The notes under the pieces: generated by a model
Told to the model about the DNA's origin: nothing
Seen by the model: only the letters and a program-made list of their open reading frames with translations
Database searches by the model: none
Translations under genes and position numbers: made by a program
Shown: positions 58,990 through 63,264 of the stretch, in pieces
Position numbering within the stretch: position 1 is the first letter of the stretch
How the letters are laid out: every line of letters begins with the position of its first letter
NCBI GenBank assembly: GCA_903901335.1
Contig: CAIUQR010000034.1
Span: forward strand, 53,736-117,735
DNA from: an uncultured delta proteobacterium
Lineage (GTDB): Bacteria > Desulfobacterota > Desulfobulbia > Desulfobulbales > Desulfocapsaceae
Reading direction: 5' to 3'
Length of the DNA stretch: 64,000 nt

Positions 58990-59008
58990 GAGCTTATTCG
59001 TAAATAAA
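58990..59008 (+). repeat. IS5-family terminal inverted repeat, left
   Basis: GAGCTTATTCGTAAATAAA. It matches the inverted copy at 59896-59914 in 18 of 19 positions and contains the transposase stop codon (58994-58996 on the minus strand). Confidence 0.93.
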
Positions 59009-59828
59009 ACCTGCTTTCCTAAACGCGATTATGGCCGCAGCCATGTGCAACAAAGCTTCATGTCTCTCGGCTAGTTTTTCGAATCGTACCAAGAGCTTCC
59101 TGAATCTATTAAACCATGAATGGGCAACCTCAACCACATACCTTCGAGCTCTATAAGTTGGATTGTTTTTCTTCTCCTGGATTTCTTCTCCGCGTTGTTT
59201 GACATGCGGAATGTATAGCCGATCTTTGATAATTTGCTGCGCAGGTTCTCCGGAATATCCTTTATCAGCACAAAGATGTTGTGCCGTATCAGGACGTTCG
59301 ATAACAATCGCATCAAGCACTGCTCCCAATTGGCTGACATCATGCCGGTTTGCTCCGGTTGCGACTATCGAGAGCGGGACACCACGCTCGTCCACCAGAA
59401 GATGTCGTTTGGTACCGTTTTTTCCCCCTGTCTGTCGGGTTACGACCAACGGTTTCTTGAGCAAGTGGGGCTTTGACCATTGCGCCATCAATGCTTTGCC
59501 AGCGCCAGGCTATGCCCTCCATGTCATCATATTCGGCAAGGCCAGATCGCCAGAGTGCGAGGAAAAATCCTGCACGTTGCCATCTTGCAAAATGAGTATA
59601 GATTGCGCTCGGACTACCGAATCGCTCTTTGGGCAATGCCTGCCATTGGCAACCTGTTCGTAGCACATACATTATGGCCTCAAAAATTTTCCGGGAAGGT
59701 ATGGGCTTTCTGCCACCCCCGGATTTACGCTTATATGTTTTTTTCGGATCACGTTTAGGAGTAGGTATAATTGGTTCAACCTTTTTCCAGAAAGAGTCGG
59801 AGACTTCCCATGCTTTTATTTGTGCCAT
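58994..59828 (-). CDS. IS5-family transposase in two frames (programmed shift likely)
   Basis: The 5' frame starts at ATG 59828 behind GGGGGTG and encodes the HTH/DUF4096-like part (SFWKKVEPIIPTPKRDPKKT, GGGRKPIPSRKIFEAIMYVL) and the first catalytic Asp region SIDGAMVKAPLAQE. The 3' frame, ending at 58994, encodes GTKRHLLVDERGVPL, then CADKGYSG and the C-terminal RRYVVEVAHSWFNRFRKLL motif of the DDE transposase. The frames meet at a G5A6 run (T6C5 on the plus strand, 59418-59428). A +1 shift or transcript slippage there gives one protein of about 277 residues. Both halves are otherwise intact, so the element may be functional. Confidence 0.88.
59418..59428 (-). other. Slippery G5A6 tract joining the transposase frames
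   Basis: On the minus strand GGGGGAAAAAAC lies exactly where homology passes from the upstream frame (GRNPTDRGKK) to the downstream frame (GGKNGTKRH). Homopolymer runs like this support ribosomal frameshifting or RNA polymerase slippage in IS elements. Confidence 0.6.
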
Positions 59829-59895
59829 AATCACCCCCGTCGAAAGATTAATATGATTAAGGGTAATATAGCTGTTATGTAAAGAAAAATCTATA

Positions 59896-60703: not shown

Positions 60704-60997
60704 TCAACAGCCGCAACGAGACGGAGCTTTTCCGCGAATTCTGGCAACCCAGCTGTTGATTATATAGGAAGCACAGCCGCAGCCATCATCGGGGTTTACG
60801 TAGATGGCTGCAGTCGGACAGTTTTTTGCACATGCACCGCATTCCATGCAAGCATTTAGGTCGACAATCTTGGCTTTGCCGTCACGGACCTGGAAGATGC
60901 GGTGTGGGCAAACCAACTGGCAATTGCCGCAACCGATGCATTTGTCCTCCGACAAACGAAGGATCGCAGTGTCATCAAGATATCTGAAACCTTGCAC
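60704..60997 (-). CDS. hgcB: Ferredoxin HgcB (mercury methylation)
   Basis: 97 residues from GTG 60997, selected because AAGGAG (61004-61009) is spaced 6 nt before it and the protein then starts MQGFRYLDDTA, as HgcB proteins do. Two [4Fe-4S] motifs are CIGCGNCQLVCPH and CMECGACAKNCPT. After them come the conserved GCGCASYIINSW segment and a Cys pair at the very C-terminus (SRCGC). HgcB passes electrons to the corrinoid of HgcA. It follows hgcA by 22 bp. The known requirement for both proteins in Hg(II) methylation makes this pair diagnostic. Confidence 0.92.
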   Translation of the reverse strand: MQGFRYLDDTAILRLSEDKCIGCGNCQLVCPHRIFQVRDGKAKIVDLNACMECGACAKNCPTAAIYVNPDDGCGCASYIINSWVARIRGKAPSRCGC

Positions 60998-61019
60998 GAA
61001 ATTCTCCTTTTTTCTTTGT

Positions 61020-62210
61020 TTACACAAACGGTCCGGCAATCCAGAATATCAAGGCCAAAATCGCCGATCCAATCTGAAATATCAGACCGTTTCGCATCTC
61101 CTTGGCTACCCCTGAAAGTGAAGTGAATGGCGTTGAGCCGGTGAAGTTCATCGCCAGATAGGCGGAACTGCTGATGGTCCAAAGGCAGATGGCAATCTTT
61201 TCAATGTCGCCCAGCGATTGCCAACCAATAAACAGCAGAAGGAGTGAAGCAAGGCTCCCCATAATTGCCCCTTTCAGCCAAAACTGACGAAATGGCAGCC
61301 ATGGCAAAAGAAGAGGAGTGGCTACCGCCCCGGCGAACATTGCCGTCAATGTGGCGAAGACCAATAAAATACCCCGGTTGAAGGCCAAGGTCGGAGAAAA
61401 GAAGTCCGGCGATATCCCCGACAGGATGAAAATGATCAAAGCCACGACGCTTAACTGTTTCCAAAGCATACAGATTTCCAGCGGGATGAGGACCGCCCGT
61501 TCGCGCAGGGTAAAGGTCACAGTACGCATGTCCTCATCGGCTTCCCCAGCCTGCAGAAATTTCGGCAAGTCAGCGGCCAATATCGGCCCAAATCGACCCC
61601 TGAAGCCGCAGAGCTTTTTTAGCTCATGGGCAGCAACCCCGTTCGCCGAGAGTTGAGGCAGAAGCACTTCCCTGTGAGTAACAATCTGGTCGAGATTTGC
61701 TTTGTGAACCTGATAGGCGATTTCCTCGGCGGAAAAAGTACCCTTGCCTGCGGCACACCAGACATTGATGCCGCGGGTATCGATTACCAAAAGCCAAGCG
61801 TTTACACCCACGAGTCCTTGACGCAGAGTGTCAAAACTTAATTTGTAGTTGGCTGTAACTACTACCGGCGACGTTGTACTCGGTTCGCCTATACAGTAGA
61901 GGCCTGGGGTAATTTTATAGTTGTTGCGGAAAAAACCGGTTCTGGCACCGATAGTACCGAGTTTGTCACGCATGGCAAGCTCGGCTGCCACCCGTGGCAC
62001 CGGCCCGACGGAGGTATCAACGAAGCCCTCGACAAAAGAGAGAATGCCATATCCGGCGCGTTCATTACCACTGGACCGTGGCTGCGGTTTTGGGCCTCAA
62101 CAGGGGGCGGCTGGGATTTCTGTCGGCATCTGGCAAGGAGCAATATCGGGCTGCTTACCCGAATCGGATGGACGCAGGAGCAATATTTGATGCTGGAGCT
62201 GACTATTCAA
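61020..62210 (-). CDS. hgcA: Corrinoid methyltransferase HgcA, with in-frame TGA (putative selenocysteine)
   Basis: 396 codons from TTG 62210, which follows a perfect AGGAGG with a 5-nt spacer. The cap-helix motif NVWCAAGK (codons 149-156, cobalt-facing Cys152) and a C-terminal membrane domain of about five helices (about residues 245-396, including NFTGSTPFTSLSG) are the hallmarks of HgcA and separate it from CO-dehydrogenase corrinoid proteins. Codon 38 is TGA (62097-62099), right after a Cys codon. The conserved block ERAGYGILSFVEGFVDT and VGPVPRV lies after it in the same frame. No ATG, GTG or TTG occurs between the TGA and GTG 62000, and that GTG is inside the conserved block. A SECIS-like hairpin follows. 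Read-through as Sec is the favoured view; a nonsense mutation or sequence error is possible. Confidence 0.9.
62068..62081 (-). promoter_or_regulatory. SECIS-like hairpin in hgcA mRNA
   Basis: On the minus strand CCAC-GGTCCA-GTGG forms a 4-bp stem with a loop that starts GG. The loop begins 19 nt after the TGA (62097-62099), close to the 18 nt seen in Escherichia coli fdhF, whose loop also contains GGUC. Bacterial SECIS elements need a G in the first loop positions at about this distance. The stem is short, and an alternative ACCG/CGGT stem is possible. Confidence 0.5.
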
Positions 62211-62259
62211 TTGGGCCTCCTGAATATTTTCTTCACCAGAGTTTTTCGCTCTAGAACAA

Positions 62260-63192
62260 TTATGCTCTGATATTCATCCCCTGCAGAACAAGGCGAAGTT
62301 CGATACTTATCTGGTCAAAAACCGTGTGCATTCCTAGATGCTCAAAAAAACGACTGGAACCGTAAATGATATTCCATCGGGTGCGGTCGAGGTCAAAATG
62401 GGCTTCCAAACCCAGGGAACCATCCTCCCGCACTGTGATGATTGCTGGAAAATCAAGATTCTTTGTTACACCACGCAGGCTGAGTGAACCTTTGAGCATA
62501 CTGTTGGTACTTGTCCTATAGGGAGTATCGGCTATCTCTCCCTGATCAATACTAAAGGTTGCAGTTGGAAATAATCTGGTGAAAAAAAAGTCATCGGATT
62601 TCAGATGTGCGAGAAGTACCGGCTGAAGTTCATCACCGGCCAGATTGACATTCTCCATGGCATCCATATCAACCACCAATTCTCCGGTTAGAGAACGTCC
62701 GCGCACGATGAGGTGGCCGCTTTTCAGCGGAAGTTTGCCGAAGTGTTTGTTGTTCTGGTTGCGACCGGACCATCCCATGATACTGGCCCCGGTATCCAAT
62801 TGATATTCACCGTCAAACGATGGTAGGAGGGTAGCCGAATCAACATTCCCCTCTGCTGCGTCACACCCTTCAACCGGATAACCTGCTGCGCGCCAGGCGG
62901 CAATTCCCCCATCCAAAATGAAGACCTGCCGGTATCCGCTCCTCTGGAGTTTTTCCGCCGCAGTCACCGCATCGAGGGAATGACTACTGGAACCGTAGAG
63001 GACAATGGCACTGTCCTTATCTGCGCAGAGGGTTCTCATATCATCAAGAAAAGTCACCTGATAAACACAGACATTAGCGGCTGCAGGAAGATGTGTTTTT
63101 GCAAAATGCTCTGTTGGAAGGGTGTGTATGAGCAAGGCGCCATCTTTAATCTTCAAAAGGGCCTCCTCAGGTTTAATATAAGTTAAATTCAT
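62260..63192 (-). CDS. Rhodanese-like domain fused to a YceI-like domain
   Basis: 310 residues from ATG 63192, with GGAG 8 nt upstream. Residues 1-115 form a rhodanese fold (ALLIHTLPTEHFAKTHLPAA, VFILDGGIAAWRAAGYP), but the active-site loop reads IVLYGSSSHSLDA and has no Cys, so sulfur transfer is unlikely. Residues about 120-310 match YceI, a lipocalin-like isoprenoid-binding domain (ASIMGWSGRNQ, LRGVTKNLDFPAIITV). There is no signal peptide, so it should be cytoplasmic. It lies 49 bp upstream of hgcA on the same strand and is probably co-transcribed with hgcAB. Confidence 0.82.
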   Translation of the reverse strand: MNLTYIKPEEALLKIKDGALLIHTLPTEHFAKTHLPAAANVCVYQVTFLDDMRTLCADKDSAIVLYGSSSHSLDAVTAAEKLQRSGYRQVFILDGGIAAWRAAGYPVEGCDAAEGNVDSATLLPSFDGEYQLDTGASIMGWSGRNQNNKHFGKLPLKSGHLIVRGRSLTGELVVDMDAMENVNLAGDELQPVLLAHLKSDDFFFTRLFPTATFSIDQGEIADTPYRTSTNSMLKGSLSLRGVTKNLDFPAIITVREDGSLGLEAHFDLDRTRWNIIYGSSRFFEHLGMHTVFDQISIELRLVLQGMNIRA

Positions 63193-63264
63193 GGGATGCT
63201 CCAATTATTTAAATACAAATAAAATCTTACAAAACTACACCTCTGCAGAGAAGAAATCCTCCTG

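Follow-up and report, generated by a model that had tools for sequence, protein, structure and literature searches.

Microbial mercury methylation requires proteins of the HgcA family. HgcA proteins carry a cap helix with a conserved cysteine, followed by a domain of five transmembrane helices, as described in PMC7305189. The same paper proposes that a flexible C-terminal cysteine pair of the partner protein HgcB moves Hg, and cites mutation studies that implicate the HgcB tail cysteines in methylation (PMC7305189). The model enzyme is HgcA of Pseudodesulfovibrio mercurii ND132. Cloned as ‘full-length’ protein, which we take to be the annotated form, it showed methylation activity in E. coli lysates according to PMC11588087.

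Selenoprotein forms of both proteins have already been predicted. A 2026 review lists HgcA (NF040863) as a selenoprotein with the motif CU and also predicts selenocysteine (Sec) in a GVGU form of HgcB, in both cases citing Haft & Gwadz 2023 (PMC13188914). PMC11588087 likewise mentions possible selenoproteins among the homologues of hgcA and hgcB. These passages have overtaken the novelty of the original prediction for the DNA described here, which was made from its letters and knew of no selenoprotein HgcA. Among titles of the open-licence literature, we found none reporting experimental proof of Sec in HgcA. The main text of PMC2398784 (PLoS Genet 2008), apparently the review’s second HgcA reference, contains none of three CO-dehydrogenase terms, and the main text of the deep-Sep paper has no mention of Hgc. 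The hgcA gene described here adds a member to this already predicted form. It belongs to the same family as the predicted CU protein and has the same putative Cys-Sec motif; as far as that protein is described in the citing review (PMC13188914), we found no difference between the two.

We analyzed a 64,000-nt stretch of DNA, referred to as the window, from an uncultured member of the Desulfocapsaceae. Features of the hgcA region are listed in Table 1. Read through its TGA, hgcA gives a 396-residue protein that scores 408.9 bits against the NCBIfam model NF040863 (cut-off 275). Its cap helix (residues 149–156) fits the family pattern N(V/I)WCA(A/G)GK, and a structure model with mean pLDDT 90.1 has five long C-terminal helices (250–264, 273–300, 310–327, 335–354 and 365–395). 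Foldseek matched this model to the published HgcAB model and to CFeSP. The adjoining hgcB ORF (60704–61039) scores 107.2 bits against NF040864 (cut-off 99). The family score, the cap helix with the five C-terminal helices and the neighboring hgcB identify the protein as HgcA.

Table 1. Window coordinates of features in and around hgcA
Feature	Position	Strand	Remarks
hgcA	61020..62210	minus	start TTG 62210–62208; 396 codons, then TAA at the 61020 end; one in-frame TGA (predicted Sec38)
TGA, very likely selenocysteine 38	62097..62099	minus	directly after the Cys37 codon (TGT 62100–62102); following codons GGC-CCA-AAA-CCG
AGGAGG, likely ribosome-binding site	62216..62221	minus	5 nt before TTG 62210; from sequence
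Cys152 of cap helix NVWCAAGK	61755..61757	minus	counterpart of ND132 Cys93
SECIS-like hairpin GCCAC-GGTCCA-GTGGT	62067..62082	minus	GCCAC 62082–62078, loop GGTCCA 62077–62072, GTGGT 62071–62067; at a position fixed among Cys-TGA genes
hgcB, dicluster ferredoxin	60704..60997	minus	start judged by eye, likely GTG at 60997; C-terminus ..RCGC, followed by TGA as stop
Rhodanese and YceI fusion	62260..63204		directly upstream of hgcA
Two overlapping ORFs	58994..59834		

The reading frame is as originally described. It is open upstream to a TTG with a perfect AGGAGG, its sole interruption is the TGA, the codon before that TGA encodes Cys, and the stretch from the TGA to the conserved block FVEGFVDT contains no ATG, GTG or TTG. 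An in-frame ATG at codon 28 is a possible alternative start and also lies 5′ of the TGA.

The original prediction expected Cys or Sec at the codon-38 site of homologues, and the alignments agree. Among the best 80 of 569 loci (those named), 50 have Cys-TGA and 28 have Cys-Cys at the exact site, and in the other two (L104 and L129) Cys-Cys is displaced by 1 and 3 residues; these fractions do not measure the prevalence of Sec, because they come from the best 80 loci and because 27 of the 40 regions of our phylum search were chosen for a visible TGA. A search for the window’s own family in 93 genomes gave 61 strong matches (E below 1e-50), of which 50 have exactly one TGA. In one of these 50 (G065/L136), the site holds Cys-Cys and the TGAs lie upstream of it. 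In all 30 loci taken from this search, Cys-TGA precedes the cap helix by 111 codons. We read 20 further regions, mostly lower-scoring rows of the same search. The 18 readable by pattern comprise seven Cys-TGA, five Cys-Cys and six that have neither or are too short, and one of the remaining two (L152) has Cys-TGA by eye. Another locus (L094) was missed by the cap pattern and read separately.

Isolates with Cys-TGA include Desulforhopalus singaporensis (L065), Desulfopila aestuarii (L073), Pseudodesulfovibrio pelocollis (L080) and Salidesulfovibrio brasiliensis (L134). Desulfoprunum benzoelyticum has TGA at the site and Desulfoluna limicola has Cys. In more distant members of the phylum, the distance from the TGA to the cap is about 107 codons, and the TGA often stands within CUPP or CUGP. 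Relatives with the site 111 codons before the cap share the residues GP..PR.G..ER.GY 3′ of the TGA, and the reading frame is kept through the TGA across relatives. An in-frame TGA with Cys at the same site in homologues is one of the patterns by which bacterial selenoprotein genes are recognized.

We labeled 164 HgcA genes by a looser rule as Sec (93, including seven in which the TGA is not immediately after Cys), Cys (58), neither (12) or too short (1), and built a FastTree phylogeny of their cores. At least seven changes between Sec and Cys are needed on this tree when rows with neither are left out. Treating Sec against all others gives 10 changes, five of them forced by well-supported branches. 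The midpoint root has Sec on either side. The presence of a Cys-Sec or Cys-Cys pair on both sides of the HgcA tree is possibly a new observation.

The 12 of 164 genes with neither pair under the loose rule (L141, L142, L144, L145, L159, L169, L177, L211, L215, L216, L218 and L221) include some from the window’s own family. The two that were scored, L142 and L144, are above the HgcA cut-off. Given these genes and the lysate activity of the cloned ND132 protein, not every HgcA requires the pair.

The original prediction also pointed to a hairpin with a GGTC loop 19 nt past the TGA. The hairpin is present, its loop beginning 19 nt after the TGA, but taken alone it is within chance: 30% of codon-shuffled versions match it (p 0.30), and in folding energy the 51 bases that follow the TGA are no better than shuffles (z +0.54). 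Nor did this energy, relative to codon shuffles, distinguish the 88 Sec genes from the 41 Cys genes (p 0.35). The case for the hairpin comes from a comparison at a fixed place. A stem of at least 5 with G at the loop start is found there in 80 of 88 Cys-TGA genes but in 10 of 41 Cys-Cys genes (p 3e-13), a result inflated by relatedness, from a test whose position and columns were set after viewing the sequences. The loop starts at index 21–23, counted from the T of the TGA, in 84 of the 88 Cys-TGA genes. We also permuted synonymous codons column by column across 63 Sec genes. With the better-scoring register of two, 263 of 315 pairs were formed, compared to 225 ± 3.9 under permutation; the maximum in 2000 draws was 239, so the observed pairing was never reached. 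All five pairs form in 30 of the 63 genes. A G-loop hairpin behind the UGA is therefore significant across the gene set and not for the window alone, and the contrast between Sec and Cys genes is the firmer part of this evidence. HgcA with Cys-Cys, found in Desulfobacterales and Desulfoluna (for example L091, L098–L101 and L116–L121), is the same protein with Cys for Sec at the same site. It differs from the window gene in having TGC or TGT instead of TGA, and in mostly lacking the hairpin at the fixed place.

All components of the Sec machinery that the original prediction named were found in the window’s own genome, a draft of 155 contigs that is 94.85% complete. SelA scores 629 bits and selB 391 bits, two selD genes are above the cut-off, and the tRNA-Sec (selC) has the anticodon TCA. 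One of the two selD genes (L021, C111:32785-33714) has an in-frame TGA, and the sequence suggests that SelD may itself be a selenoprotein. We rejected the presence of SelA as a discriminator of Sec from Cys genomes: among 79 genomes with loose labels, a selA above the cut-off is present in 46 of 48 genomes of the Sec class, in 22 of 23 of the Cys class and in all 8 that lack a pair. The two Sec exceptions both have selB and tRNA-Sec above the cut-offs; in one (G036, 97% complete) no selA was found, and the other (G092) has a weak piece of selA below the cut-off.

Homologues, the Sec machinery and the recurrence of the TGA in many assemblies all support a selenoprotein HgcA with a Cys-Sec pair. 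We give a probability of about 0.8 to the reading that the UGA encodes Sec and places a Cys-Sec pair on an N-terminal arm, which would bind Hg(II) and pass it on to the methyl-corrinoid. SelB and Sec-tRNA(Sec) recognize a hairpin behind a UGA. Here, SelB with Sec-tRNA(Sec) would read the hairpin and insert Sec38, and in a selenium-starved cell translation would halt at codon 38 and yield no full-length HgcA. Sec should have a higher affinity for Hg(II) than Cys has, and should serve better as a leaving group and in redox reactions. If the UGA does encode Sec38, full-length HgcA needs selenium, and methylmercury formation in such bacteria would be tied to selenium supply.

Residues 1–59 are proline-rich and have no helix or strand in the structure model, whose first strand begins at residue 60. 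The pLDDT averages about 50 for residues 1–20, 75 for 21–30, 65 for 31–40 and 85–91 for 41–60. In the model, only part of the arm looks mobile, because residues 41–60 are placed with confidence of 85–91; the pair-bearing part is less certain. The proline-rich segment might shuttle between a donor of Hg(II) and the corrinoid, itself held by the Cys152 region of the cap helix. The arm could act beside the C-terminal cysteines of HgcB and, by analogy with them, keep Hg(II) or methylmercury near the corrinoid. Binding of Hg(II) by the pair and its delivery to the corrinoid are plausible, and by the same analogy an Hg(II)-handling arm is our best guess for the role of the pair. The route of Hg(II) to the corrinoid, a proposal in PMC7305189, thereby becomes testable from the HgcA side.

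The strongest rival accepts Sec and assigns the pair another function, as a redox couple (selenenylsulfide/thiol-selenol) or as an acceptor to which the corrinoid passes its methyl group or the product, and the natural substrate may then not be mercury. The evidence for Sec is identical under both functions. Several other selenoproteins also have CU motifs, some of them called organometallic in the review (PMC13188914), which fits such a role; the mutation studies on the HgcB tail cysteines cited in PMC7305189 speak against it. We regard this rival as somewhat doubtful yet a serious contender, with a redox role nearly as likely as one in holding Hg(II).

The TGA could instead be a true stop, ending a 37-residue leader peptide, with HgcA starting at the first start codon 3′ of the TGA (GTG 62000–61998), as gene callers report. 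The resulting 326-residue ORF scores 409.7 bits against NF040863 (cut-off 275) and covers model positions 1–324 of 325. The original claim that no complete HgcA is possible without reading past the TGA was thus too strong. The ORF fills the model because NF040863 itself begins after the Cys-TGA site. Late starts among the closest database proteins also agree with a true stop: of the best 120 database proteins to the window HgcA, 117 start after the site, none reach it and three have no readable cap motif. The lysate activity of cloned ND132 HgcA (PMC11588087) points the same way. However, conserved residues directly follow the TGA, in the window no start codon separates them from it, and the AGGAGG is located at the TTG. 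Relatives with Cys code straight through this stretch: of the best 120 database proteins to P. pelocollis HgcA, 50 carry Cys-Cys at the site, 69 start after it and one is unreadable. We consider a true stop very unlikely and retain Sec. From the late starts in these two sets of 120, gene callers seem to lose the pair where its second codon is TGA.

The annotation of the ND132 enzyme may be a case of this kind. ND132 HgcA (P0184, 338 residues) has the same corrinoid domain as the window protein, with its cap Cys at 93 rather than 152. As annotated, it begins 22 residues after the site, unlike the window read-through protein. Its start coincides with that of P0121, the core of P0121 is identical to that of P. 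pelocollis HgcA (L080), and the P. pelocollis DNA upstream of this start runs on through Cys-TGA. From these sequence matches, ND132 likely has the N-terminal arm. Similarly, Desulfococcus multivorans P0182 has a late start and is identical to a Cys-TGA protein (L155) over the 230 residues compared. The HgcA constructs studied so far were probably without the arm. Since the closest database HgcA proteins and annotated ND132 HgcA start after the pair, a conserved thiol-selenol site may be missing from structure models and from the purified enzyme. The pair may be dispensable, because cloned ND132 HgcA is active in E. coli lysate; assuming the annotated form was used, the arm is not absolutely needed in that assay. 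A broader reading is that laboratory HgcA is truncated, that ND132 and most Desulfobacterota HgcA have an unannotated N-terminal arm, with Cys-Sec or Cys-Cys, for loading Hg(II) onto the methyl-corrinoid, and that methylmercury formation in these bacteria is selenium-dependent. We offer it tentatively, as possible rather than probable.

The window’s genome has a second tRNA-Sec-like tRNA (L004 1501–1590, C149:51970-52059; 60.1 bits). It is a tRNA-Cys built like tRNA-Sec, with anticodon GCA, and resembles the selC-type tRNA-Cys described in PMC7609411, some of which have a UCA anticodon. Such a tRNA would produce a Cys-Cys HgcA if it read the UGA as Cys. We find this highly improbable: the GCA anticodon would not read UGA, and a true tRNA-Sec with TCA is also in the genome. 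Least likely of all, with a negligible chance despite the draft assembly, is that the TGA stems from faulty sequencing or assembly or that the gene has decayed, since Cys-TGA recurs at the same place in many separate assemblies, the four isolates above included, and the remainder of hgcA is intact.

The TGA that ends the window hgcB after ..RCGC was considered as a C-terminal Sec codon and rejected, with similar ..GCGC and ..CC ends in other HgcB proteins and unconserved sequence behind them. Terminators in the 105 hgcB genes read were TGA in 74, TAA in 17 and TAG in 14, and from sequence the terminal TGA looks like an ordinary stop. The window HgcB is also not of the predicted selenoprotein type, having GCGC where GVGU carries U. 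We observed GVGU HgcB in three loci (L105, L129 and L136), all paired with Cys-Cys HgcA, a number too small to call the pairing exclusive.

The rhodanese-YceI fusion upstream of hgcA is not a conserved neighbor: beyond the window locus, matches were found in L029 and L057 only (29% over residues 24–112), among loci whose length of upstream DNA varies. By eye, the two overlapping ORFs in Table 1 resemble an IS transposase split in two.
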